A DNA stretch of 64,000 bases from Solanum dulcamara (taxonomy: Eukaryota; Streptophyta; Magnoliopsida; Solanales; Solanaceae): NCBI RefSeq assembly GCF_947179165.1, contig NC_077243.1, forward strand, positions 32,316,001 through 32,380,000, read 5' to 3'. Positions 1,228-56,352 of this stretch are shown piece by piece. Both the position numbers and the translations under genes were made by a program. The number at the start of each line of letters is the position of its first letter. The first letter of the stretch is position 1. The notes below the pieces were generated by a model that was not told where the DNA came from, did no database searches, and worked only from the letters and a program-made list of their open reading frames with translations.

Positions 1228-2094
1228 GACCCCATTCTCCTTCAACTGAAAGAAGAGGTTCACAAGCAGAAGGTAATAGATTTTTCCAAAGGGGGAGATG
1301 GAGTGTTGAGATATCAAGGGAGATTATGTATTTCAAGTGTTGATGGTATTCGAGAGAGAATCATGGCAGAAGCCTATAATTCTAGGTATTCCATCCATCC
1401 AGGTTCGAAAAAGATGTACCATGACTTGAGAGAAATATATTAGTGGAGTGGAATGAAGAGAGATATAGTAGAGTTTTTGTCCAAGTGCCTGAACTGCCAA
1501 CAAGTTAAAGTTGAGCACCAAAGGCCTTGTAGAGTGGTTCAAAATATAGAGATCTCGGAATAGAAGTGGGAGATGATCAACATGGACTTCATTACCGATT
1601 TACCGCAAACCCGCAAATAACATGACTCTATTTGAGTGATTGTGGATAGGATGATCAAATTGGCCCATTTCTTTCCGGTTAAGACAACACACACCGCAGA
1701 GGATTATGCCAAATTGTATCTTAGAGAGATTGTTAGAATGCATGGATTTCGTTTGTCTATCATCTCAGATAGGGGAGCTCAATTCACTTCTCAGTTTTGG
1801 AAGTTGTTTCAGAAGGGTTTGGGTTCAAGAGTGAACCTTAGTACTGCTTTTCATCCCCAGAAAGACGGCCAGGTAGAGCGTACGATACAGACTTTAGAGG
1901 ATATATTGAGAGCCTGTTTCATCAACTTCAAAGTTAATTGGGATCACCATTTACCTCTTATTGAGTTTGCATACAATAATAGCTTTCATTCAAATATTCA
2001 AATGACTCATTATGAAGCTCCGTATGGGAGGAGATGTAGATCACCAATTAGTTGGTTCGAAGTTGGTGAAGCTGAGAGGTTGAGGATTGCTTAG
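1228..2094 (+). pseudogene. Ty3/gypsy integrase
   Basis: This stretch encodes an integrase. The N-terminal HHCC zinc-binding segment lies around 1340-1510 and ends in CLNCQQVK. The DDE core follows, with MDFITDLP, then SDRGAQFTSQFW, and the Glu in GQVERTIQTLED. It would have joined retroelement cDNA to chromosomal DNA in the nucleus. Stops at 1225, 1441, 1561 and 1618 break it; the core from 1636 to 2094 is continuously open. The catalytic D, D and E are all still present despite the breaks. Confidence 0.9.
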
Positions 2095-8045: not shown

Positions 8046-10433
8046 TCAGTTACACAAGAAGGGAGGTTCTTTGTTGTGATCAGGTTCAACTTCTTGGAGT
8101 ACCTGCACAGATACAAAACCAACAAACCACACAACCAAAGAATTCTGCAAGCTGCTGTAACCATTATTATTAACTTGTATTTGTTCCTTGTGTGCTGCAA
8201 GTTGTTGGAGGTGTTGCTGGAGTGTGTTGATGTTAGAGAATGTAGATGGCAAGCTGAGGGTGCTGCTCCATAGAATTCCCAGGTTATGGCAGCCCTTATA
8301 GCAGTTCCAAAGATGGTCTGCATAAAGGGATGAAGAAGAACAAAGCCAAAAGCTGGAGTGGATGTTATGGGATTGTTTCTGTGGAGTCCTGGTGAGCAGC
8401 TCCAACTCTTTCTGATGGAATAGCTCCCCAGTTGTTGATGTACCTAAGCAAGAACAATCAAACAAAGACAAGCAACCAAACAAACACAAAAACCAGGAGG
8501 GAATTGCAATTCTGCACAGTCCTTGTGTAGGCCTCTTAGTGAAGGTATTTGTTTTGGTGGTTGTATCTGTGATGTGCTCTATGTAGGTGTTGATAAAACA
8601 TGTTGATGAATCCATCCTGACATCTGCAGCTACACAATAAACAAGAACCAGCAAGACAGGGTTTGCACAAGGAGCTGCTGCAGGTGTTGAGCTATTAGAG
8701 AAGGCATAGATGGAGTGGATAAGCTTCTGTAGGTTTGTGTGCAGCTCCAAGTTTCTTTCATAGTATGAGAGGTTAAGGAACTTGTTGGAGCATGCTTCAC
8801 AGAAAAGAAGGCCCTCTCTTGTGATCTGGTTCAGGTTGCTTGTGTGTGGCTCCCCAGTAGTTATTGCAGCTAAACAAAAACAATCAAAGGAATACAGACA
8901 ACCAAACAAGCACCAAAAACAAGAGGGTTCTCCATTTCTGCACAATCCTTTTGTTTCAGTCATGGAGAGTCCTGTAACAGTGGTGTCATCTATGTATTTG
9001 TTGTTAAAGCATATTGGTGTATATTTCCAATAACCTGCAAATACACAGCAAATAACCAAAGACAAGCAAAAACCTGTACAGGTTAATAGAAAAGAATGGA
9101 TCTCAAAGAGAATTTTGGAGCCTGTTAGCATTTTCCATGTCGCTCGACTAACGTCTCCACTTATCCGTTTGAGCTGAAACTTCATGAGGTATGCACATAT
9201 AGACTTTTCTTTAGCCTTGTAAGATTTGAAGGCTTTTTGCTCAAGTTGGAGCTTCCATATAGCAAATTTCTTCCTTTTTAAGCTTAAGACAGCTGTAATT
9301 TTCACGGTCGCTCGCCTAACGCCTCCAATTGTCCGTTTGGGATGAAATTTCTTGAGCCTTATCAAAATAGTATATGCTGCAATCCTACAAAGTTTGGGGG
9401 CCTTTGGACAGGTCCACATGCTGCACCTCACCCTGCACCTGCTGCCCTGCTGAAGCTTAGGGGTTGCAGGGTGTTTGGAAGTTGTATTTGTGCTCTTCTC
9501 TATGTATTTGTTGTTAAAGAATGTTGATACATCACTCCAGTCACCTGAAATAATACAACAACCAAAAACAAACAAAACAGAGCTTGCACAAACTAGCAAA
9601 AAGGAAGGGACCTCAGTAAGAGCTTTGGAGGCTACTATCTTTTTCCAAGTCGCTCGACTAACGTTTCCAAATATCCGTTTGACCTGAAACTTCATGATGT
9701 TTGCATATATGGCCTTTTCTTTATCCCTGAAAATTTTGAAGGCCTGACTCCCAAGTTGGAGATTCCAACTAGCAAGTTTCTCTCTCTTTAGGCTTAAGAC
9801 AGCTGATTGTTTCAAGGTCGCTCGCCTAATGTCTCCAATTATCCTTTTGAGCTGAAACTTCTTGGGCCTTGTCAAAATAGTAGTTTCTGCAATCCTGCAA
9901 AGATTGGGGGCCTTTGGACATGTCCACTTGGTGCAAATCCCCCTGCACCAACAAGCAAAAAAAAACACAGACAAGTAATTCTGCAGGTTATAATAGCTAC
10001 TACTAATGTCTTGTATGTATTCCCTGAGAGTTGCAGGTTGGTGACTTTGTTGCTGGAGGATGTTGTTGTTGATAAAGGTAAGAGGCAAGCTGAAATTGCA
10101 GTACAAAGGGCTCCCAATGCATGATCCTGTGTTATTGCATCCTTTAGCAGCCATCCAAAGAAGAGTTGCAACAGTTGGATTAGGCAAACTTCCACTTGTA
10201 GTTTGTTGCATCCTGCTACTGCTGCACCATGGGACACCTAAGTTTGTTTCTCCAAGGGTCCACATGCTGCTGCTCACCCTGAAATTTTCCAGACCTGCAA
10301 CTACCTGCATATGCAAAAGGAAAAGCAAGGAAGAGATAGCTACTCTAACTCCTAAATCTAATGGTATGGAGATTATTCTACAAAAGCAATAAATTAGGGA
10401 GACTCTCCCTTTTACAATGGTCCTGATTATCAT
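8046..10433 (-). CDS. Uncharacterised 795-codon ORF3 in the LINE 3' region
   Basis: This frame starts with an ATG 42 bp after the ORF2 stop and runs 795 codons without interruption, unlike ORF1 and ORF2. I do not recognise any known domain. It contains repeated blocks. A basic motif, seen as KKFQLKRIIGDIRRATL, occurs four times. Cys/Phe/Leu-rich hydrophobic stretches also recur, often followed by (N/I)(K/T)YI.(D/E/H).T. The first and last about 80 residues resemble each other (LREYIQDISSSYYNLQNYL against KEQIQVNNNGYSSLQNSL). The DNA also carries repeated pyrimidine-tract/CAG words, so the openness could be a by-product of repeat structure. No typical initiation context or homologue could be tested. 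Function unknown. Confidence 0.45.
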   Translation of the reverse strand: MIIRTIVKGRVSLIYCFCRIISIPLDLGVRVAISSLLFLLHMQVVAGLENFRVSSSMWTLGETNLGVPWCSSSRMQQTTSGSLPNPTVATLLWMAAKGCNNTGSCIGSPLYCNFSLPLTFINNNILQQQSHQPATLREYIQDISSSYYNLQNYLSVFFFACWCRGICTKWTCPKAPNLCRIAETTILTRPKKFQLKRIIGDIRRATLKQSAVLSLKREKLASWNLQLGSQAFKIFRDKEKAIYANIMKFQVKRIFGNVSRATWKKIVASKALTEVPSFLLVCASSVLFVFGCCIISGDWSDVSTFFNNKYIEKSTNTTSKHPATPKLQQGSRCRVRCSMWTCPKAPKLCRIAAYTILIRLKKFHPKRTIGGVRRATVKITAVLSLKRKKFAIWKLQLEQKAFKSYKAKEKSICAYLMKFQLKRISGDVSRATWKMLTGSKILFEIHSFLLTCTGFCLSLVICCVFAGYWKYTPICFNNKYIDDTTVTGLSMTETKGLCRNGEPSCFWCLFGCLYSFDCFCLAAITTGEPHTSNLNQITREGLLFCEACSNKFLNLSYYERNLELHTNLQKLIHSIYAFSNSSTPAAAPCANPVLLVLVYCVAADVRMDSSTCFINTYIEHITDTTTKTNTFTKRPTQGLCRIAIPSWFLCLFGCLSLFDCSCLGTSTTGELFHQKELELLTRTPQKQSHNIHSSFWLCSSSSLYADHLWNCYKGCHNLGILWSSTLSLPSTFSNINTLQQHLQQLAAHKEQIQVNNNGYSSLQNSLVVWFVGFVSVQVLQEVEPDHNKEPPFLCN
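9131..9930 (-). repeat. Direct repeats in the LINE 3' module (two 290-bp copies, 510-bp period)
   Basis: 9131-9420 and 9641-9930 are diverged copies of one another, spaced exactly 510 bp. Inside each copy a shorter element, GTCGCTCGNCTAAYG, occurs twice (9139 and 9307; 9649 and 9818), so four copies are arranged at about 168, 342 and 169 bp. In ORF3 these encode the four basic KF..KR..G...RAT motifs. This hierarchical pattern implies at least two duplication rounds. Confidence 0.85.
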
Positions 10434-10474
10434 TATTTATATCAGCTAATATTACAAGGTATGAAGAAGTTCCT

Positions 10475-13400
10475 TCAAGGTGGTTGATTGATCTTCTTCA
10501 TCTTAGTTCTCCTGAAGCTAGCCATGCCAGCTTTGTCCATTTTGTAGTGTCCCTTGGTCTCTCTTGGAAGCTGTTGAAAGCTGTAGTAGTGTTGTGTACA
10601 GCTTTTCATATGGCTTTCCTTTGAGAGTGAATCTACAGTGTAATTAGCTTCCCTAAAGATATGCCTGCACTGGAAAATTTCCAGTTTGCTAACCAATACT
10701 TGCAGTTCAGTAATATAAGTAAGAATGTTCCATGGAGGTTTAACTTCTTGTTTAAGCCACTTGATTAGAAGTTCAGAGTCAACTTCAAGGGCTACCCTGT
10801 TGTATCCATGTTGTAAGCACCACAGAATACCAATAAGTGATGCCTGCACTTCAGCTTGGTTATTAGAACCACAACCTAGTGGAGATGCAAAAGCATATAT
10901 TAAGACCCCATTATGGTCCCTAAGAATGCCCCCTGCCCCTATCTTCCCTGGATTGTTAAGGGCACTCCCATCTGTGTTGAGCCTGATCATTGTAGGCTGT
11001 GGTTTAGTCCAGCATACTTTGGTTATTCTCAACTCATGTTGGCTTTTTTCAACCATGGTAACCAAATCTGCCCACTTACTTGGCAAATCAATATATGGAT
11101 ACACAGTAGAGATAAGCATATATAGATCTTTGGATATTGAGAGTATTACTCTAGTAGCATTAGACTTCTTGCGTCCATACTTGCATGCACATCTATTCTT
11201 CCATAAATTCCAACACACAAAAATGGAGGTGGCTTGCATTACTAACTTATGTAGCTCATTATTAGTTTTGATTAGCCACCACCTCATCAATAGGTTTTTT
11301 AGAGGAGTGTTGCTGTGTTGTAGACCCCAGTACCCTGAGAAGTGCTTCCAAATATGTTGTGCAAAGTAGCCTGAAGCAAGGATATGGTCTACATCATCAA
11401 GACCTGCTCTATAGCAGCAAGAGCATGCAGCAGGCTTCTGTCCAAAGGCCACAATTCTGTCATTTGTGGGTAGCTTAAGTCTGAAAGCTCTCCACAAAAG
11501 AAAAGAGACCTTGAAAGGAATGCTATTGTGCCATATGTTGCTGTTAGTGAGAGATCTTGTCTTTTTCTTTCTTACTAACTCCCAAGCTGATGCACAAGTG
11601 AAGTTGCCATGAGAGTTAGGCTTCCAGATGGCTTGATCCTGCATATTTGGAATATAGCTGATGGGAGTGCTGAGAATTTTGCACACCAGCTGAGGGGGTA
11701 CATGTTTCCTTACTTCCTCTGCCTTCCATCCTCCATTCTCCATTAGTTCAGAGACAGTAGTGTTATTCAATCTAGGGAGACTTTCATTGTGGTAAGCTAA
11801 TGGACCTACCCCTAACCAGTCATCCCACCACAAGCTGCTTGTTCCAGACTTGATTCTCCATTGTATATGAGGCTCAATATCTTTTTTATTGATCGTCATG
11901 TGTTTCCACATGAGGGACTGTCCTGTGTCCCACTTTTTTATGACTGGATGAGCCCTTTGACAGTATTTTGCTTTAAGGAATTCCCCTCATAGTGTCTTCT
12001 TTGATCTGAAAGTCCACCATTGTTTATATTGGAAGGATAAGCACACATCCTCTAATTTTTTAACACCTATACCACCCTCCTTAGGATAACTGAGAGTATC
12101 CCAAGAGGCCCAGTGATATTTTCTTCTTTCAGTATCCCATCCCCAAAAGAAGTCAGCAATTAGTCTTTTGATCTGATTCATGGTGGTCTTGGTAGGACTG
12201 ATAGCTGACAACAGGTGTATAGGAATGGATTGCAGCACTGATTTCACCAAGGTGACTATACCTCCATAGCTTAACATTTTAGTCTGCCATCCCCTGATCC
12301 TGCTTAGAACCTTAGAAACCATACTAGAGAAATATATGATCCTTTGTCCTCCTATATATAAGGGACAGCCTAGGTAAGTGATTGGGCCATGAGTGCATTT
12401 GTATCTTGTGATCATGCTGACCCTTTCCACCACACCAGAGGGAGTATTCAGTGGCATCATGGTTTGACTCTTATCTTTATTGATAAGTTGTCCTGAAATA
12501 GCTTCATACAGTTTAAGAGTTTTGGTAATCAGTGTAAGTAAGAAGTTGCTGGTAGATGTGAAAATGATCACATCATCTGCAAAGCTCAAGTGATTTATTT
12601 GAGGACCTCTTCTTTCCATCTGGAATCCTGTATATAAATAATGGTGATGAAGATTGTTGAGAAGTCTAGACAGAACTTCAGCTCCAATGATGAATAAAGT
12701 AGGGGATAGGGGGTCTCCTTGCTTGAGACCTCTTGTAGAGTGGAAGAAGCCATGCCTTGCACCATTAATGATGACTGAGTACCAATTGTTTGACATAATC
12801 CTCCAAACCATATCAATCAACACTTCTCCACACCCCATTTTCCTCATGACCATACATAGAAAATACAACTTTCTTCAGCTCATCCATAGTAGGTAAGGAT
12901 TGCAGGCTCTCATTCTGCTCCTCTGTAACCATCCTTGGAATGCATTTAAGAACATCTTCCCTGATCAGTCTCTCTTCTCTAGTGAATATTTTTTCAAAGT
13001 GTGCTATGGCTGCTCTTGCAATATTGTCTTCACCTTGAATAGTATTGCCTTGTTCATCACTAATCTGATGGATGAATAACTTTCTTCTTCTTCCTCTCAT
13101 AATAGCATGAAAATAGCTGGTATTGGCATCTCCATCTTTGAACCAATGAAGTTGAGTTTTCTGCTTTAAGATAGCCTTCTCCATCTTCAGATATCTGATG
13201 TACTGAGCATTGATCTAATGTATCTTGGACCTGTTCTCTTCAGTATTGTCACTGATTATTTTCTCTTCAGCTTGTCTCACCTGCTCTTCATATTCTTTTA
13301 CTGAAGCAAAGATGTCCCCAAACTCATTTCTTGACCACTTACTAAGAGTATTAGAAACTCTTTTCAGCTTTTGTTGGAAGGTTCTCATTGGATTTCCCTC

Positions 13401-14189
13401 CACAGGATTATCCCAACATGCTTTTACAGTGCTAAGGAAATTATCATTGTCTGTCCAGCAGTTTAGAAATTTGAAATACTTGATAACATTACCTTGTTTT
13501 GCCCTGCTTTCCAGCAATAGAGGGCAATGGTCAGATCCTGTGGAGGCTAAGTGACTGACAGTTGTTACAGGCATGACTTCTAACCAAGAGTCATTAACCA
13601 TGGCCCTGTCAAGTCTTTTCCAAATTCTAGCATCTTTGTCCCTATTGTTGCACCAGGTGAACTTCTGCCCACAGAACCTCAGATCAGTGAGTCCACATGC
13701 TTCTATCACACTAATAAACTCAAGGCTCTTGTTCATATTATATGGCTGGCCCCCCATCTTTTCTTCAACATCTGTAATAACATTGAAGTCTCCAATGGTG
13801 CACCAAGGCTTCTCCTTACTGGAGAACTACAACATCTTGTCCCATAAGTCTCTTCTCATGTAATCCTTGCACTTTGCATAGACAAAGGTAATGAGGTAGC
13901 TATTAGGACAGGCCACATGATTGATCTCACAAGTGATCTGCTGCTCATCCTGGTCCATAATGTTGCAAGCAATGTCTTTGTTCCAGAATAACCAGATTTT
14001 GCTATTGGAGTTGGACATAACATTATCCATACCTAGCTGAATTCTGTGGAACTGAATTTGAGATTTGTTGGAGAATGGTTCCAGCACTGCTATGATAGAC
14101 AGCTTATGAAAGTCTTTCAACCTTTGTAACCTGTCAAGGGCCCCCTGAGTATCAATACTCCTTGCATTCCAACAGATTGTACTAATCAT
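10475..14189 (-). pseudogene. LINE ORF2: endonuclease, reverse transcriptase (motif A deleted), RNase H
   Basis: ORF2 nicks target DNA and primes reverse transcription there. The ATG at 14189 overlaps the ORF1 stop as TGATG. The order is an exonuclease-endonuclease-phosphatase domain (start ISTICWNARS, GDFNVITD, end GSDHCPLLL), the reverse transcriptase (GLKQGDPLSP, FADD box near 12570), the zf-RVT segment, and RNase H with NTDGSA, QAEVQA, LEVDSE and YTVDSLSKE. In-frame stops are at 13827 (TAG), 13215 (TAG) and 11987 (TGA). Near 12852-12868 the frame shifts and the fingers plus motif A (first catalytic Asp) are missing. The stop-to-stop pieces are otherwise well conserved, suggesting a fairly young insertion. 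Confidence 0.92.
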
Positions 14190-17100
14190 CAGGGTTTTTG
14201 ATTTTTGGACCTTGTGTTGATGTTGCTTTTGACAGCAATATTATCAGAACTGGTGATGGTACTTTTCTTATTCTTCTTCTTTGTTTGCTTACTTGTTGTA
14301 GATGGATTATTTTCCTCATTGACCTGCTGCTTTTCCTTCTGCAAAAAAGCTTCCATAGTGGTTCTAAAGGTTTTTATTTGATCTTCCTGGTTTGTTTCCT
14401 CCCTTTGGTCAGGATCATCCTCATCTTCAGAATGAGTGACCCTATACTCATCAGTCAAATCCTCTGAGATGTCTCCTTTTCTAAGTGCATACCTCTCATT
14501 AGATGTATCTTGAATTTGTAGAGGGGTCACATGTATGCCTGCTTGTTCTGGTACAAGAGCATAGTTCACAATTGGTTGTCCAAATTTCATGTCCTGAACA
14601 AATTTCTTTTTAATAGCATCCCTCTTCTTTTTACTCAAAGATAGAGTACTTTTATTGTTCAGAAGCTGAGCTACTGCACCCTGGTTTTGTTCACTGCTCT
14701 TTGGAGATTTAGCATCTTCCTTATCAGTCACATTAATCTGAAGCATGTCCTCAGAAACCTGTTGAACATCCTCTTGTTGAACCTGCCTGTTGGACCTTAT
14801 GGCTGCTGAAAAAGTGGTTGCAGGGGCTGTAGAGTCTCTCCTATGGTCTACCAATAGATGTTCCCTCCCCCTGGTTTCCCCTTCCTGCAAATTAGTGGGT
14901 GTCTCCTGTACTCCCCCTTCCTCACCTCCATAAACTTCTTCAGCCACAACAGCAACATTATTTAAAACATTAAAGCTATTGGGAGAGCCATGGGGGTGTG
15001 GGAGCACTGAGTCAGTACCTGGGCCTTTGGCATTGTTGCACTCCACATCAGTATGCTTTTCTACAAGTTTGCTAGTTCCTTTCCTTTTAAAAACCTGCTG
15101 AATGGGCCTGTGGGGATTGGGAACCAATATTCTATGGGGAGGGGGCTGTTGACTCTGGACTCCAGAATCAACATTACATATTTGGACATTATCATTATTA
15201 ATATTAAAGATATTACCTGATGGCAGCATGTTCCTTGGTTGCTGATTATCAATGGTTGTTGGTTGAGGCATTTTTGAGCTTTCTCCTTGGTGCATCCTGC
15301 TTTGTTTACTTTGATGAAGAGTTCCTTGTTGGTGGGGTTGGTTATTCTTCTTGGTTTTCTTTTTTTGAATTTGTCATTCCTCTTTTTCTTGGTTATTTTC
15401 ATGGTCTTCATCTGTATTATTAAACTGCTTTTCCTTGTTGTTGTTTTTCTCTTGGAAATGCTGTTCATTAGCCTTACCTGTGCTGGTTTTGTCCTTGTCT
15501 ACAGCAGTTTCTTCTTGAATTTTCTTTTGCCTGTTTTCCTCCTCTCTTCTCTTCACTGTACAGGTAGTGTGAGTGTGGCCTTGATGCTTGCAGTGTTGGC
15601 AATATTCAGGCACCCCTTCATATTGAATTGGTTGCCATCTACCCTTGCCATTCACATCTTTTTGAAAGCCCATCCATACATGTTGGGGTCTTTGTTTGGT
15701 AAGATCCACTTGGACCTTTACTTTAGCTACACTACCTCTAGTTTTCTTATATGTTGCCAAGTCCAGGAACAACACTTTCCCAACTGGAGATAGTAGAGGT
15801 GTAACCACTTCCATACTATAACAATGCCAAGGAAGTTCTGGTAGGATTGCCCAAATAGGTACCAAGGGAGTTTCCTCCTCTGGTTTAAATGTGGGAGTCC
15901 ACAGTTGTAGCCTTATGAGCTGGCCTTGGATAAACATTTTTCCTTTTGACCACACTGTTGTGTGATCAAACTCATTGTCCAAGTCAATGTATATGTGTCT
16001 GGAGTTGAAATGAGTCAGCTTAACCCCTCCTTTAAGCTCAGTTTGTAGGATGAACTCTTTTCTAATAACTTCCATCCTTGGCATTGTATGTGTAAACTTC
16101 CCAATAAGGGTGTATTGACACTTAGCTGCTAAGTTAACCATGAAGTCCTCTTCAGAGAATAAAACTGCAGGGTATCCTTGCTTTGTGGTGATTTCAGGGG
16201 GGGGGGGAGATACCTATAGGAGTACTTTGGACAGTCTCTTGGGCTCTAAGTCTGGTAGCAAGATTGTGTGTTACAATAGGATTTGGAGGGTTGGTAGTAT
16301 TTAGAACAGGAGTTCTGGTTTGGTTGTTGATTTTGGGAGCATGATTGTTCCTAATTGGTGGATGACTGTTCTGATCTTTTCTATGGTTGTTGGGATTGAA
16401 CACCTCAAAGTTGTTAGAAATTTTCAAGGGAGTAGAGTTGGGAATGTAAGGTTTGTGACCAGCTGTTTGGTTTACTGCAGGACCTTTGGGGTGTAGATTG
16501 CTCACACCACCTTGTTGGATTTGGCTCTTACCTTTACCATTAGTTTTATCACTTAACTCAGATTGTACACTAGCCATATTATCCTCAGTATTTCCATTTA
16601 CAATTTGGACAGCACTTGTTGCTCCTTGTGCAGACAATCTGAAGTTCTGGAAGCTGTGGTCACTTCCTGTAACCTTGTGACCTGTAATCAAATTATTTCT
16701 CACCTGTTCCTGATTATGTTCATCATTTGTAGATTGAGAGACAAGTCCATGCTGTTGAGCCTTGTCCTGAGGCAAGTTCACTTCCTCGTCTGCAGCATAG
16801 TGTTCTTCCCTCTTTTGGTCGTCTCGACGACTTTTCGAATTTGAGCTTTTTGGGGAAGTTTCAATATAACCTGGATACTTTGTTGGAATTGTAACACCAA
16901 TATGAACATTTTGGTCTGTTTGTTGCTGCAATTGATTCAGTAGAACTCCGGCAAGCCCACTTTGGCAGTCGTTTTGACGACTTTTCGAATTTGAGCTTTT
17001 TGGTTGTAATTTGAGACATTCAGTATGGCTGGGTTGGAAGGTAAATTCGAAGCTCCTGGTGATGATTCGAACTGGCACTCCTATCCTGGAAGATGCACCT

Positions 17101-38119: not shown

Positions 38120-41100
38120 ACACTCCCAACTTGTTTATTAGATACATATGTTGTTGCTTGCTCAATCCCTTTGTCATCAAATCTGCTTGCTAATTATTTG
38201 TCTTCACAAATTCAGTCCTTATGGTTCCTTCCTTTATCTTGTCCCTTATGAAGTGACAGTCGATTTCAATGTGTTTTGTTCTCTCATTATAAACTGGATT
38301 TACTGTTAGTTAAATTGCTGCCTTGCTATCATTTCAAACTGTTACTGGCTAATGGATTTCTACTCCAAGCTTTCTGAACAAGCCTAGTAGCCAAGTAGCT
38401 TCTGCTACAACAGCTGTCATGCTCCTATATTTAGCCTCCGCTGAGCTCTTGGATACTATTTGCTGCTTCTTAGATTTCCAAGAGATTAGTGACTCTCCGA
38501 ACTTAATTGCATAGTTTGTGATGGATCTTCTAGTGTTAGGACATGCTGCCCAATCTGAATCACACCAGCATGTTATCTCCTATGTAGGTTGTGATTTGAA
38601 AATGAGACCCTGACCTGGTGCATTGTTCAGATACTTGACCACTCTAATAGTTGCTTCCCAATGTGAAACCTTAGGCTCTTTCATAAAATTGACTTAGTGT
38701 TTGGACTGCAAAGCTGATGTCTGGCCTAGTGATGGTGACATACAACAGTCTTCCTATCAGCCTTTGGTATCTTGAGATTTCTTCCAGAGGTTTATCATCC
38801 TTGACTCCAACAGCCTTGTCATATTCCATAGTAGTCAGTTTGCTTTCAGTTTCCAGTGGTGTGGCAGTTGGCTTTGTGCCTGCCAAGCCCATTTCTGATA
38901 TGAGCTCCAATATATTTTTCTTTTAATTAAGGATGATGCCATATTTTGATCTCAAAACTTCTATATCAAGGTAATATTTGAGTTCCCCCAAGTCTTTTAC
39001 TCTGAAGTCATACTGCAGGATCTGCTTGGCTGCCTCTATGAGACTGTTGCTATCTCCAGTAATAAGAAGATCATCTACATATACAAGTATTATGACAATG
39101 TTGTTACCTGACCTCTTTGTGAATAGTGAGTAGTCATGAAGACTTTGTGTGAATCCTACAGCTAGCAATGCATCAGTCAACTTGATATTCCACTGCCTTG
39201 ATGCCTGTTTTAAGCCATACAGAGATTTCAACAATCTGCATACCTTGGTCTCCCCCTACCTCTTGAACCCTTATGGTAGTTCCATATACACTTCTTCATA
39301 AAGATCTCCTTGCAAGAATGCATTGTACACATCCATTTGGTGGAGTTTCCAACCCTTTGAGGCTGCCAGTGCAATCACTGATCTCACAGTGATCATTTTG
39401 GCCACTGGAGAGAAGGTTTCATAATAGTTGAGACCTTCCTTTTGACTGTATCCCTTTGCCACCAACCTTGCCTTGAATCCCTCTACTTCTCAATTTGCTT
39501 TATACTTGATCTTGTAGACCCATTTAGAGCCAACTGCATTCTTTCCATTTGGAAGGTCAACAATCTTCCAAGTATGATTATCCTCAAGAGCCTTGACTTC
39601 CTGCTACATAGCTTCTATCCACCTTGCATTCCTTGAAGCCTCCTTAAAGCCTTTTGGTTCAGCTAAGGTAGAAAACTTAGCTAAATAACTCCTGTATTTT
39701 TCTAATGTTCCTACATATGACAAATACTTGCTTATAGAATAGATGTGATCATGACTAGTGTTGACAACATAGTCATTCAGCCACCCAGGTTGTTTGGTCG
39801 ACCTAACTGGCCTGTTGCCAGTGACAGCAGAAGGAGCAACAGTATGCAATAGAACTTGTGCAACCTCTTGTGTAGCCTTATCAGCCCCATCATCATCAGT
39901 AGGTTCAGTAATAATTACAGGTGGTGGTTCATCCATTTCCTTTTCTACTATTTCTGTAGCAGCAGCATCTGTAGCAGCACCATTGTCAGGTGTCCCCCTT
40001 GCTGCTACTAGTGGAGACTGGCAAATGTGAGCAGGAGCAGGGGAATCATATGAAGCATCACCATGGCTCAGTTGAAGAAATGTGCTATCCTTTTAAGCTA
40101 AAGAGCTGCTAAAAGGAAAATCATTTTCATGGAATATCACATCCCTGCTAACAAAAAACTTGTTAGTAGATAAATCAAACACAATATAGCCCTTTTTTGG
40201 TTTTTGAAAATCCCATGAATATAACTTCCTTGTCTCTATATGCAAATTTCTCTGATCTTGGTAGTGTAGTAACAAAACATAGACAACCAGGCACCCTTAG
40301 ATGATCAAGGGATGTTTTGCTGTGGTACAATAACTCATAAGGAGTGCATCCCTTCAGTGCACTTGATGGCAACCTCTTCATAAGGTATACTGTAGTTTTG
40401 ACACAAAAACCCCAATACTTTGTTGGAAAGGTGGCCTGAAATTTAATAGCTCTTGCCATCTCTAAGATCTATCTGTGTTTTCTCTCAACCACCCCATTTT
40501 GTTGTGGTGTATAGGGGCAGCTGCTTTAAGAGTTAAAAAATTCAGTGCCATTGTCAGATCTAATAGTCTTGACTCTACAATTAAACTGTGTATTCACAAA
40601 AGCAAGAAATTGTTTCATGACAACAATTACTTCAGTCTTTTGCTGCAACAGATGTATCCAAGTATATCTAGTATGATCATCAACAATAGTGAGGAAATAG
40701 TTCTTTCTATCAAAAGTAGGAGTTTTGTAAGGACCCCACAAATCTAAGTGAACTAGTTCAAAAGGTTGAGCTGCTCTAAAAGTGCTCAAAGGGAACTGTA
40801 GCCTGGTCTGTTTTGCTAAGGGACAAATTCTGCAATTATTATGCACATTCTTGTCAATCTTGTCCTTGAATTCTACCATAGTCTTCATTGTGGATGTTGA
40901 AGGATGGCCTAGTCTTTTATGCCATAGACTGCATCTTCCATCTACATCTGCCAGGTAAGCCTGTCTTATGCCTCTTTCTTGTTCATCATAATTTTCAGCT
41001 GCTCCTTGAAAAATGTATAGTCCTCCTTGCAACCTACCAATCCCCTTCACCTTGCCACTATAGAGATCCTGAAAGACACAGTGATCAGGAAAAAAATTGA

Positions 41101-42470
41101 CTGAGCAACTCAGTTCCTTGGTTAGTTTGACACTGATAGTAAATTGTATTTAAAATCAGGCACAAATAGCACATTTGTAATTCTCTCCTATCCAAATAAC
41201 TCAGCACATCCTGTATGTGTAATTTGTACTGCACTTCCATTTGGAAAATGCATCTTCATTCCTTTGTTTGATTGCAGGCTATGAATGTTCTTTAATATTT
41301 TGTTATTTGTAGTAACATGATGAGATGCTCCAGAATCAACTATCCACTCGCATCTTTCTAATTGAGCCATTAAACAAGTCACAATACCTGTCATATGCGC
41401 CTGGTACTCTTTAGAATCAGTGCCATGATGTTTGTACTGACTTTCTGAATCATGGTGAGTATTCCTGCCATCACTTCTTCTGCTGCCATCAACATATTGA
41501 CCCTCATTGTCACCCTTACATGCATGCTTCTTTTGGACATAATCTGCATTGTTAGCCAGTGCATCATGTGCTTCCTTCCTTTATTCTTCATTGTTATTCA
41601 TATTGTGCCCTTCTCTGTACCAGTCTTTCCTCCATCCATCACGATAGTTATTGTCCTTCCTATAACCGTCATAACCTCCTTCCACTTTTCTGTTAGCTTT
41701 GTTGTTCTTTTCTGAAGGATATCCAACTAGCTTATAGCAATCCTTCTTCGTGTGATTTCGCATGTGATAATTTTCACAGTACATTGAACTGCCTTCGTTA
41801 TAGTTATCATTTCTTCTGACTTGCATTGCTACAGGGATGGATTTCTCAGCATTCACCTGTTGACTTTCATCCTGCACTATCAAGGCATAAGTTTGATTTA
41901 CAGATGGTGCATTGGACTTCATCAAAATCTGTCTCTTAGCTTGATCATAAGACTCGTTCAGACCACTCAAAAATTGCATTAATCTCTACTTTTACAGATA
42001 TTCAATTAATCCCTAGAATTTGGACAACTACAATTTGGAGAAGGGGCTATCAAATCAGACTCACTCCACAACTCCTTCAATTTTGAGAAGTACATTGACA
42101 TTAGGTTGGTTCCCTATTTAAGATTTACAATGGCCGTGTGCACCTGGAAAATTCATACTCGATTCACCTTATCAAAGCTTTCTTTCAGATCCTCCCAAAC
42201 CAAATGTGCATTTGATTCATATACAATGCCACTCAATAGGTTCTCCGACACTGTATTCATGATCCACGAAAGTACAATCGCATTCACCGTCTTCCATTAT
42301 TCATGAAGTGATTCATCGAATGATTCCTTCATACATGTTCCAGTTACGAACCCTAGCTTCTTCTTAGCTAGAAGCGAGATCCTCATAGCTCGGCTCCACA
42401 CTCCATAGTTGTCAGATCCGGTGAGTTTCACTGGTGCTAGAACACATATAGGGGATAGACATGCTCTGTG
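38120..42470 (-). pseudogene. copia gag-pol polyprotein, broken
   Basis: Domains in order on the minus strand: gag (NYGVWSRAMRI near 42410, FLSGLNESYDQAKRQIL at 41979), a weak knuckle (CENYHMRNHTKKDCYKL), protease with WIVDSGASHHVT (41340), GAG-pre-integrase LWHKRLGHPS (40920), integrase core with HLDLWGPY and IRSDNGTEFF (about 40550-40760), then reverse transcriptase with [12 protein letters not shown] (39330) and the YVDDLLITGD box (39080). The RNase H part (38120-38680) is heavily mutated. Catalytic DSG, integrase D/D and YVDD remain. At least eight stops or frame changes inactivate it. Confidence 0.92.
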
Positions 42471-45735: not shown

Positions 45736-48116
45736 TGTGTTCTTCATTTCCAGGTAAGGCTAACCTAAAATATGGATTGAGTTCTTCTATATGCCCCATA
45801 GATGTGTTGGATGAAAATTGTGAAAGACTTGAACTTTCTATGAATGTTTTCTTGGATTTTTCCTAAACTCCAGAATACTATTAATATGTGTTAATGATGT
45901 TCTTGAGTTGAGTTTGTTGAGATTATGGATTCATTTCTTCATCCACATGAAACCAAGATTAGATTTCTTTTTGTTATAATTTATCTTGAGGTTGGGATTG
46001 ATAGTTTTTATGTAACTATTGCTTTCAAAGGGAGATGATGTATTTTTATTAATGATTGTGAATGAAATTGAATATAGAGGTAAATGGGGATTTTGGAGAA
46101 AGATGTTTGATGATGATGTGAATGATGAGGTTTGATGATGAGGTGAATGATGTTTACTTAATTAAGGAAAAATGATTGATGAAGAGGTGATGTTGATGAT
46201 GACATTTTGATATGAAATGATTGGAGTCCAATGTGACTACATGATATGTGATTTGCATAATTTAATTTGATTGGAGTCATATGAGTATAAATGATTGTTT
46301 GAGAAGGAGTTTTAAATAAATGATTTGTGAACATTTTTGCATAAACTATTTATACATTATTTTGAGTTTAAAGAATGATTATTTTCATCTTTGATTTAGA
46401 AAGAGTTTAAGCATAATTTGAGTTTGAAAAGTCTCTTAATTATTATTTTGAGTATGAGTATTTGGAGTATAAACGAGTTGATAATTTTTACATTAAAACA
46501 TCTATTTTGAGATTGAGTTGAATAGTTAAAAACTATGTTTTAAATGCATTCATTGAGTTGAGATTGTATCAATTTTAAAGAGAAGAGTTTGATGGTTTGA
46601 GATGAGTTGATTTGAAAGAAGGTCCAATGAGGCCAGAATTGATTGAGTTTTGAAAAGAGTCCAATGAGACTAAATGAGTTGATTTGGAAATAAGTCCTAA
46701 GAGACTAAATGAGTATTTTACTCACTTGATAGATATGAGCATATTGAGTCTTGGGAGGAGTATTGAGCACCGAATTGGGTAAGAGTATAATCCATACTCG
46801 AATTTCATAAACTACATAGCCAACGTAGGAAGGGATTGGACCGTTAAAGTCGGATGTTTCCCATTTCATTATCCTGAAGTGATAGGACTTGATTGATTGA
46901 TGGATCCATGATTGGTTGATTCATTCATACCCTGGCAAAGTATGAACGGACATGGCAACAGCGTCAGCTTGTTGCACATCACTGGCTCATAGGTGATGTT
47001 TGTCGGTTAGAGAAACTCCCAAATTGAGTGAATTGTGCATGATATGATTGTTTTGATTGTGATTGTAGATGATTGAGTTGAATGGTAAAAAGGTTGTTAA
47101 ATTCTAATTTGCATATCTATTGAGTTGAGTCCTTTGACTTGATTGTTGAGTTGATTGTATATGATTAGATTGGATTAGACGATATGTGATTGGATTGGAT
47201 TAGACGATATGTGATTGGATTGGATTAGATGATATGTGATTGGATTAGATTGGATGATATGTGATTGGATTGGATTAGATGATATGTGATTGGATTGGAT
47301 TGGATTAGATGGTATATGATTGGATTGGATCAGATGGTATATGATTGGATTGGATCGTATGGTATACGATTGGATTGGATCGGATTGTATATGATTGGAT
47401 TGGATCGGATTGTATATGATTTGATTGAACTATATTGTACATGATTGGATTTGATTGGATGGTATATGATTGGTCTCTGTCTAAACTGTATTCTTATTTT
47501 AGACTTATGACACCTTGATTGAGTATCTCTTATCTTTATGACTTGAGATATTTGAACTGGTATTGTTTCATTCTGCCATATTACATACTCGTACATTTCA
47601 TGTACTGACGTCCATTTGGACCTGCATGGTTTCATGATGCAGAGACAGGTTTAAAAGATCATCAATAGGCATACCGTTGAGGATCTGTTCACACGCAGCT
47701 TATTAGTGAGTCCTCCCCTACATTCGGAGGATACCACTTAAGTTATTCTTGCATCGAGTTAGTCTTTTCATTCTGATTTGAGGTAGCCATGAACATGTCA
47801 TTGGCACCAATTAGATAGTAGTGATAGAGGCTTCATAGAATAGATAGTGATGTGACGATTGAGTATTTTATTTCTTGAATTATTCTTGTCAAACTATTTA
47901 ACGACATAGATTGGAGTTCGATTTGTTGGCCCATGGACTTTATTATTTGAGTTAGAGTGATGATTTGAGTTTCCCACTAAATTATTTCTTTATTTTAAAC
48001 TTTCTGCTGATTGATTGATATGAATGGATGTGTGATTGGATCAAGTGGTTCGCTTGGGGACCAGCAATGGTCTTCGAGTGTCGGTCACGTCTAGGGTACT
48101 CTCCCGGGGCGTGACA
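45736..48116 (+). repeat. Gypsy LTR (related to 2773-4978), 5' end missing
   Basis: The 3' end is intact (GGTACTCTCCCGGGGCGTGACA to 48116). The last 500 bp parallel those of the LTR at 2773-4978, including GTGAGTCCT, GGAGGATACC and GAGGTAGCCATG blocks. The 5' TG end was not found and may have been lost against the Tat-like relic. It contains a 25-bp minisatellite. Confidence 0.7.
47163..47467 (+). repeat. 25-bp minisatellite, 12 units
   Basis: Twelve head-to-tail units of consensus GATTGGATTGGATTAGATGATATGT cover 305 bp. All are 25 bp except the sixth (30 bp, one extra GATTG). Units diverge gradually from left to right, with units 8-12 carrying ATCGGATTGTATAT variants. Confidence 0.95.
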
Positions 48117-49782: not shown

Positions 49783-52700
49783 TCAGACGAATCGAAATTG
49801 CATAAGCAGCCTAACAGATTTAAGTTTTTCACCCTTCTTGTCATAGAGAGGGACTGCTCGGATTCCAGGTCTCAACTCTGAGACAGGCAAACATGTCTGA
49901 CCTCCAAAATCATCCTTATCTGACATGTCATATTCTCGTACTTCAATCCGAAGCAAAGCCAGCTCTGGCACTGTCAAGGGGAATTTAAACTCTTCTCCCC
50001 ATATAGGACCCCAATCATCCTCTATTATCCTGGTCCTTCTCTTTGTAGCATCTGCTGGAACTCCAATTATATATAGCTGCCATTCACATTCATTGAGGGT
50101 CAACAAAGCTTTCAAAATTTCCTGAAACTTCCTTTAATATAAAGCAAAAAGGCGAAACACTATTCTGCCTAGTGCAAAGGCAACCAGAGAAAGAATACAA
50201 GCAGGCTATAAATTATTATACATAAAGAAAAGAGGATGACACAAGTCACAACAGGGCATGAGATCAGGGTGATCAACAAAGTTCTCTTCAGGTCATCTTT
50301 TGAGTATGAGTGTGTATAGTACATTTTGTTAATTACAGCAATTATACCTAACTCACTTGTCATGACTATTATGTTGGCCTCAAACCAACAATTAATCCAA
50401 TGGTCCGCCACTTGTTTCAGTTCCATTAAAAGATGCTTTGGCTCCAAATTTAAAGTTTAAAGTTGATCTTGCAACTTAAATGATATGCACACTTGTTTTT
50501 TTCCTTTTAAAGTATAAAGTAGTACATGTCATTTAAAAACCAGGCATTAGATATTTGATAAGTGGTAGTAAGTAATGTAGCAACTATCCAATGAATGAAC
50601 TATTGATTGAGGCCACAACTCCCATATTGCGCGAGCTACTTGATTTTATCAATATATCACTTCGAGACACTCAAGGGAAGAAAAACTGGTTTGAATATAT
50701 CACTGGAGGCGCTCAAGGAAACATCTGGTTAGATCTAACCAACACCTGGCCATCCAAGACATGGTTAGCTATGATGTGTACTTAATTAGGCAATAAGATG
50801 AGTCACACCAAATGGCGCCATCAATATAGCCTTGCTAACCTTTGTGTAGAAGTCTGGGGGAGAAAAGGCATCAAAGTGCGTGTGGCTGAAATCCATGCGC
50901 CATCCATCTCCCAAGTATACTCTGACCTGCAAAAAGATCATACTTCTTGGAATTATCATCACATATGCTTCAAGTTTGTTATGATCTCCACATCACACAT
51001 TTCATTTACCCTTAAAGTTTTCTTCACCGGCAATGTCACTTTGGGATCAAATAATTCATTATGTGGTCCTCTTTCCATGAGAAAACCAGGCTTTCGTACA
51101 TAGCCACAGCCCCCGTTAGACCTAAACATCCCATGCATAATCCAGAGTGATTTCCCATATCCCTATCATATGCAATTAAAATAGCAATTAGACAGAATAT
51201 AATGAATCAAATTGATAAGAAATTACTAACAGCAATCAGCATGGGCAGAATCATCTGTTACATCATATTCGCATTCATTTGTTTTCTATTTTTTACAAAA
51301 AGTTTGATCAATGGTCTGCAGAGAAATGGAGAATACTCAGAAAGCTAAATAGTATCCATTGGTCAGCTCAAAATGTATTTGTTCAATTTGATGTCAATTT
51401 TGTGATAATACATGATAGACCAGCCTGCCCAAGAACTGCCAACAGAGCGTTACTGATCCCTGATATTAGTACATACGAAAATGTATCCACATAATCCTTG
51501 TCTGTATGAAAAAATCCTAATTTAATCCTATGTATTCTATTCATCACCTTATAATTTTTGAGTAATTTTTTTATAAAGTGACCAGAAACAACCCTCCAAG
51601 GGAGAGATTAAAGAAAGAAAAGGTACAAAATCCAAAAAGTTGCAGAACAGAAGAAAATGATAACAGGGATTATTAAACATTGTGGTACAGGGTAGAGTGA
51701 AATGATAGAACGGGGATTTCTTAAGTATTGTGACACAAGGAGCAAGAGAAATTGTGAAAGTTAAAAAAAGTACCACACACAAGGGCAGAAATAAACTCGG
51801 GGAGAAGAATATGGATGCACCAGTTACCTGCATGTTAAATGCAACCATCTGAGCTCCATGCATCCAACCAATCATAGGTTTAAAATTTGAGGAGGTGACT
51901 CGTGTTCCCTTGGGAAACACCCTCAAAATATTCCTTTGAGTGAACCTAGCAAATGGAAGAAGCAGAGGAAAACTCAAATGGTGAATAGGGTAGACGATTG
52001 AGTAGTCTCATCAGTGGTTGCAATTTATTTGGTAAAGAACTAAATACCTGACCAAATCCTTTCCATGATTTGTTGCAGCTTTTTCAAGTGCATGTTCATC
52101 CAAACTTAAACGATTGAATTTAATAACCTCATCTGTTAGTACACGCTTCACCCCATGTTTTGCCTTCCCAGCATGAATTGCTATCAAATGCTTGTACTGG
52201 GGTGCTCCTAGCTGGGATGATTGGTTGTTGGAGGTCTCATTATCTTCATCGTCTTGATCAGTATCACTCTGAGAAATTCCAGAAAAAATGACTAGCATGC
52301 CAAAAGAAAGATATTAAAGAGATTGTTCCAATGCTACTTTACCCTCTCATCAGTTTCATGTCCTTCGTCTAAGATTTTTGAAGTATCCTTGACCAGTAAG
52401 TCTTGCAGTGAATTCCTCGTTGAAGAATCACTTTCTCTATTTCTTTGATGCTTAATCTCTTGAGGTGTTTGTGAATGCCTCGAGCCACATTCTGCCTTCC
52501 CAGCATTAATTGCTACCATGCGCTTGTACTGAGGTGCTCCTTGCTGGGATGACCGACAGTCAAAATGATCACTTCCTAGGTCATCTTGATCTATATCACT
52601 CTGAAAAATACCAGAGATAAGAAGATTAGATTGCCAAAAGAAGATATCAGAGAGAATCTCATGTTGTTTAATTTACCCTCTCATGAGCTTCATGTTTTGC

Positions 52701-55700
52701 TTTAATTTCTGAAGTCTCCTTCACCACTAGGTCCTTTCCAACTGAATCGTTTCTCTCCAGAGATGCACTTTCTCTGTCTTTCTGATGCTTTGACTCAACA
52801 TATTCTTTGGGCGGCTTGGGAGAAAGTGGAGTTCCATTCTTATGCTCTTCAGGTATTTGCGCATGCTTCAAGTCATAATTTGCCTTTCCAGCATGCATTG
52901 CTACCATGCGCTTGTACTGAGGTGCTCCTAGCTGGGATGATCGATGGATTGAGGGATCATTATCTTTATCATCTTGATCCATAACTTTCTGGAAATGCCA
53001 GAAAAAAAGTAGATTAGCATTCGAAAAGAAACATATAGTTTTAACGTTGTTTGATGACATTTACCTTCTCATCAGCTTCATGTTCTTGGCCTGTAATTTC
53101 TGATGTATCCTTGACCAAAAAGTCCCTTTCAACTGAATCTTTCCTCACCATAGTTGCATTTTCTTTGTCTCTGGCATGCTTCAGGTCAGGATCTTCTCTG
53201 GGTGATTTGGTAGCATGAACTATTTGATGCTTGAGCTCTTCTGGTATTAATTCATTTTTCAATTCACTTTTGGCCTTCCCAGCATGAATTGCTATCAGAC
53301 GCTTGTACTGAGGTGCTCCTTGCTGGGATGATTGGTAGTTGGAGGTATCACCATCTTTATCATCTTGATCAGTATCACTCTGAAAATATGCCAGTTAAGA
53401 AAAGGAGATTATCCTACTGAAAGAAAGAGAGAGTGAAAGACTGTTTTAGCATTGTTTTACCCTATAATCAGCTTCATGTCCTTCTGTTGTAACTTCTGAA
53501 GTCTCCTTGACCAAAATGTCCCCTTCAACTGAATCTTTCTTCGCAGGAGATGCACTTTCTATGTCTCGGTGATGCTTCGACTCAAGATATTCTTTGGGTG
53601 GTTTGGTAGAAAGAATAATCCGATGCTTAAGCTCTTCAGGTGAAGGAAATTCCTCTAAGCATTCTGACCGAGGAAAATACAGCATCTCCCCAAAGACTTG
53701 GATAACCGTCTAGAAGAAGAAAATGGGGTGCATGAGGGGGAAGAAATTAAGAGTAGAGTAAACATTATATATAATCTGAAAAAATGTTGACAAAAAAGGG
53801 CAACCAACTCTAACCTCTGCAACTTTTGCTTGAAGGTCTGGCGTCAAGTGGTCTTCCAATGTAATTATTACAGGATAAGGAGATTTAATAAATGCATGGT
53901 CCCTAATGGACCTTAAGCATGTAAGGAGCGGCACGGGCGTTGTCAGGGTCCTGGAAATGATCATAATTGGCATTCTCATCAAAACTCATTAATTTCAAGT
54001 GTTATTCAGATATTGTATCCTAGTTGAATACTATAATAACAATAAGTGATAATGGATAAATTACTCTTAAAATTAAGAAGTACTTCAAAGGATTCGCTAT
54101 TAGATAATATGCTTTTCATCTCTGGTAAGATGACTTTGAAGAGTTTAATAATCTATAGAAGAAATCTATTCAAACACAAACATCTAAATAAGATAAACTG
54201 TTCCATCCACAATCACCTGAATGATAATTAACTTCCAGTCATCTTCAACCTTTTTTGGTTGTAATTAAGTTGAGGTAAGTGGATCACACTAAATATCAAC
54301 ACTTGCGGGGTTTGTGGATGAGTATGAAGATCTCCAGAGGTTGTACTGCACTTATTGCTTCTATAAGTCATATATCTCTTAACTAGTACTTTAAAACTTA
54401 GTAAAGGAGCATATCATACCTTCCATGAAGAACATGCACATTATCTTTTGCTGAATTTGGCCATAAATCCAGCTCTATTCCCCGCACACCTTTTTCCAGA
54501 GCTCTAATGATTGGAATTTCACTACAATCGCTGCTCAGTTGATTTCCAGTAAGGTAGGAATTGTGACCTGTATAAATGAAATAATGTTGCAATGGAGCAT
54601 TCATATCATGATGTACCTGGAATGACATAAGTTGTCAAAGTAAATCTACACATCTCTACATGTAATTTTCTAGTCACTTCTGCATAAACAGCAAATGCAC
54701 ATGGCACAAGGAATTCAAAACTTGAAATCACTAACCCCGATGATTTAAAAGTTAAAAAGAAGGGTGTTAATAAAGTTCATGCGCAATACTGCAAAATTTG
54801 TACACCTTTAATGTCAACCTTTTCATTTCTACACCTAAAAAAAGGCGCAAGCCTCAAGATAGACAAATTCCTCCTTGTCGAATTAAGAACTTGCTCCGTG
54901 TAGGGAAAGAAACTTATAGATGTATGCAGGGTTGGGTTTTCAAAGAGTCCTAACAAGAATTCAGTGTCTAAGATGTTCTGGCCTTTTTCACCAAAAATAC
55001 ATAGAAATGCTCATTCTTTCACTTTTGCAATACCATCTCTATATAAACCGTACCTCCGTAACTCTTTTTCTCAAGATATAGTTTCTGTTGTTTCAATAGA
55101 CATATTCCCTCTTGTCCCCCTTGAAAGAGGAAATGGGCCCGAGATCAAAGTCCGATTCTCTTATTAATCACTTACTTACTCTCTCGTACGATTTAACTCT
55201 CAAGCCACAAGGAAGTCATTGAATGCACACATCCATCCCTTAGTGATCAAGTGGACAAACAAACGAGAAAGAAAAGTAATTCCATTAGTTTCTATTCATC
55301 ATTTGACCATCATTCACACCTAACCTAGGACAACCATGTTGCTTGGGACCAGTAGGGTCAATTAGCACCATAGAGCAGAGAGGGGAATGGCCGCCAGGGT
55401 GGGATTTTAGAGAGTCATTTTGTAAAGCTTTCAAGTTCATTTCCCTACTATATTCTTCCTTTTATATATGTTTTTACTTCGGGATAATGTAGCGAGTATT
55501 GATTAAGTATCGGAATTGATCACCACCCATGCAAGAATCTTCAACTTAACCTGGCCTGAGAGCAACCCCTAGGGAAGTTGCTTCAACCACTTCATTCAAT
55601 CGAGCTAAAGCAAACACCAGCATTTCATCCCTTGGGAGATCCGTTTGTCAACAAATGGCATTGCACTTCACCACTCCCCTTACAGGGGAGTGCAACCTTT

Positions 55701-56352
55701 CATGGCATTACTCAGTGACGACCATTGGCACAGGCAGGATTTTCAAAACACAGAAGAAGTCGAAGAGGGTTCAACATCTATTACATATAGATAACAAATA
55801 ATGCTAACCATGTTTCAACCGTGTAATAACCCCTTCAATAATTTCCCTTATAGTGTCTAAAGTTAGTCATTTTCTCGACGAAATGCACATTTTTCATTAC
55901 ATTAACACACAGCAGTCAAATTAGTAGTACAAACAATTTTACCTTGCTAAAACTAGAATCACAACATAACCCAATCAAAGCATCTTTCCAAAAAAAAATT
56001 AAAAAATGAATAGGAGATAAACCTGGGATTTGATAGGGGCATTGAGATCATCCTGAAATAGATAATAGAAGAAATCTTCGAGTTCAAAAGAATGTGCATT
56101 CTTAGTGTACTTGGTGAGATGATGCCGGCGATTAACAACTTCTTGTATAATTTGTTCAGCATCATTAATGGTGCATCCTTTTTCACCCTGATACTCAACC
56201 ATAAACCGACCCAATTGATCCCCTGTCATGTGGCTCCCTTTTTCGGTATATAACGAAAATGCATTGCTGACATCCGGCGGGGGACCCGTCTCGCTGATCT
56301 TGAACTTTCTATTAAAACATCCCAACACTTTGTAATAATTGTAACTCCCCAT
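49783..56352 (-). CDS. PLC: Phosphoinositide phospholipase C with amplified linker/Y exons
   Basis: PI-PLC cleaves PIP2 to IP3 and diacylglycerol at the plasma membrane. Exons (minus): 56023-56352 (EF-hand-like N-terminus), 54420-54616 ([22 protein letters not shown]), 53815-53950 (X end, [17 protein letters not shown]), 53461-53709 (linker), 53065-53379, 52677-52988, 52343-52600 (tandem exons), 52048-52268 and 51828-51945 ([24 protein letters not shown]), 51010-51162, 50840-50926, 49783-50076 (C2: [13 protein letters not shown]). All introns are GT-AG and the joined frame is open: 889 residues against about 590 usually. Catalytic His and acidic residues of X are present. Start chosen because [13 protein letters not shown] matches family N-termini. 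Exon 12's acceptor (LYIIGVPAD) is the least certain border. Confidence 0.93.
52269..53379 (-). repeat. Three tandem exon-plus-intron units inside the PLC gene
   Basis: Units start at 53379, 52988 and 52600 and measure 391, 388 and 332 bp. Each has a phase 0-0 exon (315, 312, 258 bp) and a 74-76 bp intron. Every exon begins (S/K)(D/V).DQDD, passes through GAPQYKR(L/M)(I/V)A, then AGKA, and ends in a linker segment with VK(E/D)TS and EADEK-type residues. The first half matches the start of exon 8 and the second half matches exon 4, so each unit is an exon 8/exon 4 hybrid. Introns share GTAAA starts and CTGG(C/T/A)AT..CAG ends. Confidence 0.95.

Follow-up and report, generated by a model that had tools for sequence, protein, structure and literature searches.

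A tandem array of fused exons in the X/Y linker of a Solanum dulcamara PI-PLC gene, and apparently recurrent linker expansion in asterid relatives

To our knowledge, most of the domains through which animal PLCs are regulated are absent from plant phosphatidylinositol phospholipases C (PI-PLCs), and the way in which they are restrained is largely open. A PI-PLC gene of Solanum dulcamara puts this question in a concrete form: How did the linker between its X and Y half-barrels come to hold three spare copies of the segment that opens the Y half, how long have they been kept, and what might they do? The gene lies in a stretch of 64,000 nucleotides (the window; NCBI RefSeq assembly GCF_947179165.1, contig NC_077243.1, positions 32,316,001 to 32,380,000 of the forward strand), where a first-pass annotation, made from the letters alone, had flagged a tandem exon amplification. 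Whereas that annotation covered one gene, similar expansion is apparent in linker sequences from several asterid families, and this recurrence is a stronger finding than the array of the single gene.

The proposal that the array contains four Y-opening blocks was borne out by a rebuilt gene model and by motif and repeat searches, and the flagged range (52048-53709) extends precisely from the start of exon 4 to the end of exon 8 (Table 1). Translated in six frames, the window has four matches to the pattern [GA]APQYK, all within the array (at 52208, 52540, 52928 and 53319); a repeat search recovered a 195-nt family of four copies, three of which are 64-74% identical to the reference, with spacings of 332, 388 and 391; and Tandem Repeats Finder reported a period of 391 bp (3.1 copies, 73% matches, score 1083). 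Each of exons 5 to 8 opens with an acidic lead and the GAPQYK..AGKA block, and exons 4 to 7 have one common type of tail at their 3' ends. If these parts are lettered, the order is A-B in exon 4, C-B in each of exons 5-7 and C-D in exon 8, which, together with the homology of introns 4-7 (pairwise proportion of differences, 0.33-0.41; Jukes-Cantor distance, 0.44-0.60), is the pattern predicted by tandem duplication of a B-intron-C unit of about 391 bp. The earlier description of the extra exons as fusions of the start of exon 8 with the end of exon 4 holds, with the refinement that exon 7 has lost most of its exon-4-type beta-4 part, and so do duplication of the intervening intron, the 0-0 phase, the GT-AG borders and the homologous introns of 74-81 bp (81, 76, 76 and 74 bp). 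The extra exons are free of stops, as had been stated, but they comprise 885 bp, i.e., 295 codons and not 277; by the gene model, the linker insertion of 'nearly 300 residues' is therefore 295.

Tandem exon duplication was reportedly the subject of a study by Kondrashov and Koonin in 2001. The array shows its features, in that neighbouring homologous exons of one phase are separated by homologous introns, as they are in tandem or mutually exclusive clusters of the Dscam type. Unlike those, the units in the window fuse two exons around one intron, differ in length (315, 312, 258 and, for exon 8, 221 bp) and can all be read together in frame. Passages of PMC6071210 treat tandem exon duplication as a known process.

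The gene would encode an intact-looking PI-PLC, which is an enzyme by prediction. Every intron is GT-AG, the 889-codon frame has no internal stop, and EF-hand_like, PI-PLC-X, PI-PLC-Y and C2 domains follow in that order, all four Pfam matches exceeding the cut-off. This order is shared with the plant PLC6-like clade (AtPLC6), from which the window protein differs in its three spare Y-opening blocks and in the span between chosen anchors (405 amino acids, vs. 85-137 in unexpanded rows). Among the best 120 of 1841 matches listed (7996 candidates scored), the nearest proteins are from Solanum (S. verrucosum and tomato, 92% identity), and identity to tomato is 98% over 482 columns when the linker is left out. 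The tomato orthologue is named phosphatidylinositol phospholipase C 7 (PLC7), although the PLC5, PLC6 and PLC7 names of Solanaceae vary between sources; the 2016 work of Abd-El-Haliem on the tomato PLC family is said to have included no recombinant SlPLC7. The X-half residues H128, N129, E158, D160, H174, E208 and K257 (tomato numbering), whose catalytic roles we assume from PLC-delta1, are invariant in an alignment of 52 sequences, and K257 is nearly so across 129; the window translation, which is not a row of the alignment, holds the matching stretches TGHNSY, IELDLW, VLHG, TLEDH and LSTKPPK.

The search of Solanaceae relatives that the first-pass annotation had proposed found four blocks in six other proteins (S. 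verrucosum and tomato, 884 amino acids each; Anisodus, 883; Lycium, 882; Withania, 888; Nicotiana attenuata, 891) and five in Capsicum (947). These array-length proteins were taken from the best 120 of the 1841 matches listed, and blocks were counted by profile because a strict pattern missed copies. A block resembles its counterpart at the same position in another species (mean identity 0.772, 63 pairs) more than it resembles the other blocks of its own species (0.544, 42 pairs), which makes the array, judged by these sequences, older than the sampled Solanaceae. Mean pairwise identity among the window protein and the six four-block proteins (Capsicum, with its extra copy, being omitted) is 0.759 for exon 5, 0.815 for exon 6 and 0.738 for exon 7; the comparison exons give 0.895 (exon 4), 0.896 (exon 8) and 0.996 (exon 2).

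To follow linkers beyond Solanaceae, a normal-linker profile (coordinates 1-156) made from 26 short proteins (of 28 chosen, two were without anchors) was aligned to 12 long proteins. The window protein jumps in this profile from 105 to 4, from 104 to 4 and from 114 to 23, the last because exon 7 lost its beta-4-like part, and N. attenuata behaves similarly. Jumps also occur in the Gesneriaceae Henckelia and Primulina (from 108-111 back to 16-37), in Erythranthe (121 to 9, then a weak second piece), in Escallonia (93 to 64 and 93 to 38) and in Lithospermum (154 to 24 and 153 to 19), the Lithospermum repeat unit thus taking in sequence that in the window gene is found in the next exon. Weaker repeats are present in Apium and Heracleum, and the Apium linker is longer. 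Among the 78 matches to the array region alone, the only array proteins beyond Solanaceae were the two of Gesneriaceae; those of Lithospermum, Erythranthe, Escallonia and Apium were absent from these matches, and their repeats therefore rest on the profile and linker comparisons. Three Ipomoea proteins (P0054, P0057 and P0060) have a linker made of an unrelated short repeat, EAEKTNAEQQDR-like, which is another way of lengthening.

A linker-free tree of 48 chosen rows requires at least eight changes between normal linkers and those above 150 amino acids, or seven if three states are used and Heracleum is uncounted, a count that is blind to gain versus loss and that derives from a short search with Shimodaira-Hasegawa-like approximate likelihood-ratio (SH-aLRT) support only and several open forks. 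Omitted from the 48 rows were P0029 and P0106 (linkers of 485 and 262), both placed beyond the PLC6-like clade in a first tree, as well as the skip or partial forms P0017, P0021, P0025-P0027 and P0052; the first tree itself held 139 of 176 rows, 20 being without anchors and 17 being longer than 1000 amino acids and resembling fused gene models. In the first tree, two normal-linker proteins (Capsicum P0030 and N. tabacum P0032) branch as sister to the Solanaceae array clade (support 91); the 48-row tree leaves their position relative to that clade and Convolvulaceae unresolved. Both Lithospermum and Erythranthe hold normal-linker proteins (P0066 and P0065) next to long-linker ones.

If one ancestral array had been common to all asterids, it would have to be reconciled with differing breakpoints, with the normal-linker relatives that intervene, and with a tree of blocks from 13 proteins in which the copies cluster by lineage, together with their own Y block (some block starts were set by hand, and support values were not read). 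We do not favour this alternative, although loss combined with homogenisation might reconcile it with the data, mainly for Solanaceae and Gesneriaceae, the breakpoints of which are similar. Linker expansion looks recurrent, and the other families seem to have built their arrays independently.

What kind of polypeptide results is suggested by an AlphaFold2 model of the tomato orthologue based on 129 sequences: It has an ordered PLC, many blocks of which score 80-96 in the predicted local distance difference test (pLDDT), but residues 261-616 fall below 50 and have next to no secondary structure, so that the array is likely disordered. The sole ordered copy of the block is that of exon 8, where order sets in at about 617 and a short strand is modelled at 623-625. 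(A previous model from 52 sequences, with a mean pLDDT of 45.4, was too poor for use.) The top eight matches of a PDB search were to PLC-delta1 (e.g., 1djh and 1qat) and PLC-zeta (9bcz), and the exon-8 block was aligned to the start of the PLC-zeta Y half; from this alignment, its position and the model, the block would be the first strand of the Y half. The 295 residues of the array contain 20% Asp/Glu and 16% Lys/Arg (net charge -12), which gives an acidic, predicted-disordered insert between half-barrels, as in autoinhibitory linkers, though in alignment columns that are thinly filled.

Several results address whether the array has been under constraint. When exons 5-7 were mutated neutrally in simulations (5000 runs per rate, starting from the present-day sequence), a mean of 5.7 stops arose at 0.15 changes per site and 8.1 at 0.25, and the probability of finding none was 0.0026 and 0.0002, respectively. 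Across the seven Solanaceae proteins, conservation is higher in the 51 columns that make up the cores of exons 5-7 (0.862) than in the remaining 244 columns of the array (0.733; one-sided Mann-Whitney p = 2.5e-4), and a scan of 70 offsets had its maximum at the core. With gaps counted as differences, core conservation is 0.779, 0.902 and 0.905 in exons 5, 6 and 7 (0.820 in exon 5 without gaps). Henckelia and Primulina show the same tendency, with 46 of 52 core positions identical and 241 of 315 in the rest of the array (one-sided Fisher p = 0.034), in what is a small replicate with an author-chosen core window of 13 residues. The first-pass annotation had suggested selection on the copies and, as a check, the ratio of nonsynonymous to synonymous rates (dN/dS) between them. 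By the Nei-Gojobori method, six pairs per part, the ratio ranges over 0.19-0.90 in the core, where it rests on 17 codons only, over 0.12-1.07 for the acidic lead and over 0.32-1.14 for the tails; constraint between copies is on these ranges moderate in the core and weak elsewhere. Selection, as suggested there, is clear for the reading frame and for the GAPQYK core, in the latter mainly in exons 6-7, but outside the core dN/dS between copies often approaches 1.

The number of copies in the protein may vary by splicing. That forms would omit extra exons in frame had been anticipated, and proteins of relatives, all of them database records, indeed lack three or two of exons 5-7. A Withania protein of 594 amino acids equals its long form minus exons 5-7, joined at the exon borders and otherwise identical; the same exons are absent at the borders from a potato protein of 594 amino acids (591/594 identical to S. 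verrucosum) and an Anisodus acutangulus protein of 591 (589/591 to A. tanguticus). A second potato protein, of 699 amino acids, keeps exon 5 alone of the extra exons (688/699 to S. verrucosum). Besides exon 8, the database proteins contain either the full set of extra exons, a single one or none, a pattern that, if it reflects transcripts, would not fit a mutually exclusive cluster. The tomato protein P0025 (A0A097P9G2), also of 594 amino acids, was rejected as a clean skip form: All 594 residues match the long tomato form, but its tail switches from exon 4 to 6 to 7 within stretches that the repeats share. Splicing at exon borders is excluded for this mosaic, which template switching during cloning or genuine recombination can yield; either route would require a template that bears exons 6 and 7. 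The public record is possibly a cloning artefact. Upstream of the modelled acceptor, intron 4 has another acceptor-like site, TTTCTTTCAG with TAG after it, the use of which would bring an immediate stop.

The reading that we consider probable is that the array forms a long flexible regulatory linker with spare docking motifs, the number of which is set by exon skipping. The end of exon 4, a short phase-0 intron and the start of exon 8 would have been duplicated in tandem to four copies before the sampled Solanaceae split, giving three fused in-frame exons and an X/Y linker that gains up to 295 residues, mildly acidic and for the most part unstructured. This linker would bear three spare Y-opening motifs (GAPQYKRxxAxxAGKA), the last copy, in exon 8, completing the catalytic barrel. 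The conservation of the spare blocks suggests that they are docking motifs, probably linear ones that bind the enzyme itself or a partner, and the linker may restrain the active site by analogy with animal PLCs. Several observations weigh against this account. The AlphaFold2 alignment is thinly filled in the array columns, and low pLDDT there is not proof of disorder; dN/dS outside the core is often near 1, and in the core it reaches 0.90 for exons 6-7; exon 5 has a core (0.779) that is no better conserved than its own beta-4-like remnant (0.779) or that of exon 6 (0.837), which leaves exons 6 and 7 as the basis for core-specific constraint; and of 12 proteins returned by a search with the array fragment, none was transcript-derived and carried the array. 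The dN/dS values near 1 outside the core would also suit an array that is a tolerated by-product of unequal crossing-over, in a linker that accepts any in-frame insert, the array persisting with no specific function and perhaps being spliced out of the majority of transcripts. Such an origin, which we think rather unlikely, would also suit the array-less proteins of potato, Withania and Anisodus, a copy number that is still shifting (i.e., the five blocks of Capsicum), and the unrelated repeat that fills the Ipomoea linker and suggests loose constraint on content; it has more difficulty with the retention of four blocks in six other Solanaceae proteins and with a core conserved above its surroundings, again in Gesneriaceae.

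It is also conceivable, but very unlikely in our estimation, that the spare blocks and the exon-8 copy compete for one and the same position in the barrel, producing an inactive or altered enzyme, and that splicing sets the number of competitors. The block does align with an animal PLC where the Y half begins, the model shows the exon-8 copy as ordered and with a short strand, the repeat unit contains the Y opening in several lineages, and the block is the best-conserved 17-column stretch of the pooled Solanaceae extra copies; however, AlphaFold2 puts the last copy alone in the barrel and leaves the others unstructured, and the spare copies are without the Y sequence that comes after the block in exon 8. 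The possibility of an assembly artefact or a decayed pseudogene, for which repeat content alone would speak, is negligible, and both were ruled out: The copies have diverged (repeat families of at least 186 nt are merely 64-79% alike), proteins from other assemblies and species carry the array, and the frame and domains are intact. Returning to the docking linker, its boldest extension would be that one asterid PI-PLC clade evolved arrays of Y-opening strands repeatedly and independently, as a splice-tunable, multivalent self-docking switch that sets basal activity, an idea that we offer as speculative and unlikely.

The comparison with animal enzymes is drawn from passages of PMC4525138, according to which the X/Y linker blocks the active site, basal activity rises when the linker is removed, and such linkers commonly contain clusters of negative charge. 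The autoinhibitory linkers of PLC-beta, -delta and -epsilon resemble that of the window in being acidic inserts at the same site between the half-barrels, but differ in that the window linker is made of repeated exon copies, and autoinhibition would here be by analogy; among the animal comparison linkers, that of PLC-zeta is basic and membrane-anchoring. In plants, a 2021 review (PMC8148002) reports, in the part concerned, an extra cap-like domain in I-TASSER models of Solanaceae PLC6, possibly the window insert as seen at the protein level; its section 2.2 on this domain makes no mention of repeats, of exons, of splice forms or of recurrence. A literature search, whose coverage excludes many journals, found no paper on the exon array. 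What appears new in the sequences is that Gesneriaceae, Lithospermum, Erythranthe and Escallonia have linker repeats with differing breakpoints, and that Apium and Ipomoea have lengthened linkers, among relatives whose linkers are normal.

The remainder of the window includes stretches that resemble mobile elements. Non-LTR (long terminal repeat) retrotransposon-like frames occupy 10475-16213 on the minus strand, and directly after the last of them is a stop-free frame of 796 amino acids (8046-10436, minus) with no Pfam match, set in diverged direct repeats (106-300 nt, 67-83% alike). LTR retrotransposon fragments at 727-2094 (plus), perhaps of gypsy type at a guess, have an RNase H-like domain above the cut-off and an integrase below it, and broken frames at 39604-41985 (minus) resemble a copia-type element, with GAG-pre-integrase and integrase in the scanned part (40526-41149). 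A minisatellite with periods of 25 and 75 bp (12.4 copies of the 25-bp unit) lies at 47153-47473, about 2.3 kb past the 3' end of the PLC gene. Scans of the window with Rfam (gathering threshold) and for tRNAs gave no matches.

Table 1. Coordinates of the array, the gene and other domain-bearing frames in the window.
Feature	Position	Strand	Basis
Complete PI-PLC gene, PLC6-like clade	49783-56352	minus	12 exons, 889 amino acids; Pfam domains; 92% identity to relatives
Exon 4: X-domain end and original linker tail; donor of the 3' half of the extra exons	53461-53709	minus	gene model, exon comparison
Intron 4, 81 bp, homologous to introns 5-7	53380-53460	minus	intron comparison
Extra exon 5: Y-opening block and exon-4-type tail; 315 bp, phase 0-0	53065-53379	minus	repeat search, gene model, exon comparison
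Intron 5, 76 bp	52989-53064	minus	intron comparison
Extra exon 6: 312 bp, phase 0-0	52677-52988	minus	repeat search, gene model, exon comparison
Intron 6, 76 bp	52601-52676	minus	intron comparison
Extra exon 7: 258 bp, phase 0-0; beta-4-like part mostly deleted	52343-52600	minus	repeat search, gene model, exon comparison
Intron 7, 74 bp	52269-52342	minus	intron comparison
Exon 8 (221 bp): original Y-domain opening, runs on into Y half-barrel	52048-52268	minus	gene model, AlphaFold2
Tandem unit array, period 391 bp	52447-53641	minus	Tandem Repeats Finder
RNase H and zf-RVT	10475-11986	minus	domain scan of frames
Reverse transcriptase	11987-12874	minus	domain scan of frames
DUF4283	15374-16213	minus	domain scan of frames

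As a case of exon creation the array is a clean one, an intron having been duplicated with part of both flanking exons. Repeated expansion in one clade, a conserved motif and a variable copy number together point to the linker as a control point, and the forms of one gene with zero, one and three spare copies make the question of linker control testable. Tomato PLC4 and PLC6 are implicated in immunity in passages of PMC10442044, and control through isoforms could matter for the disease responses of crops.

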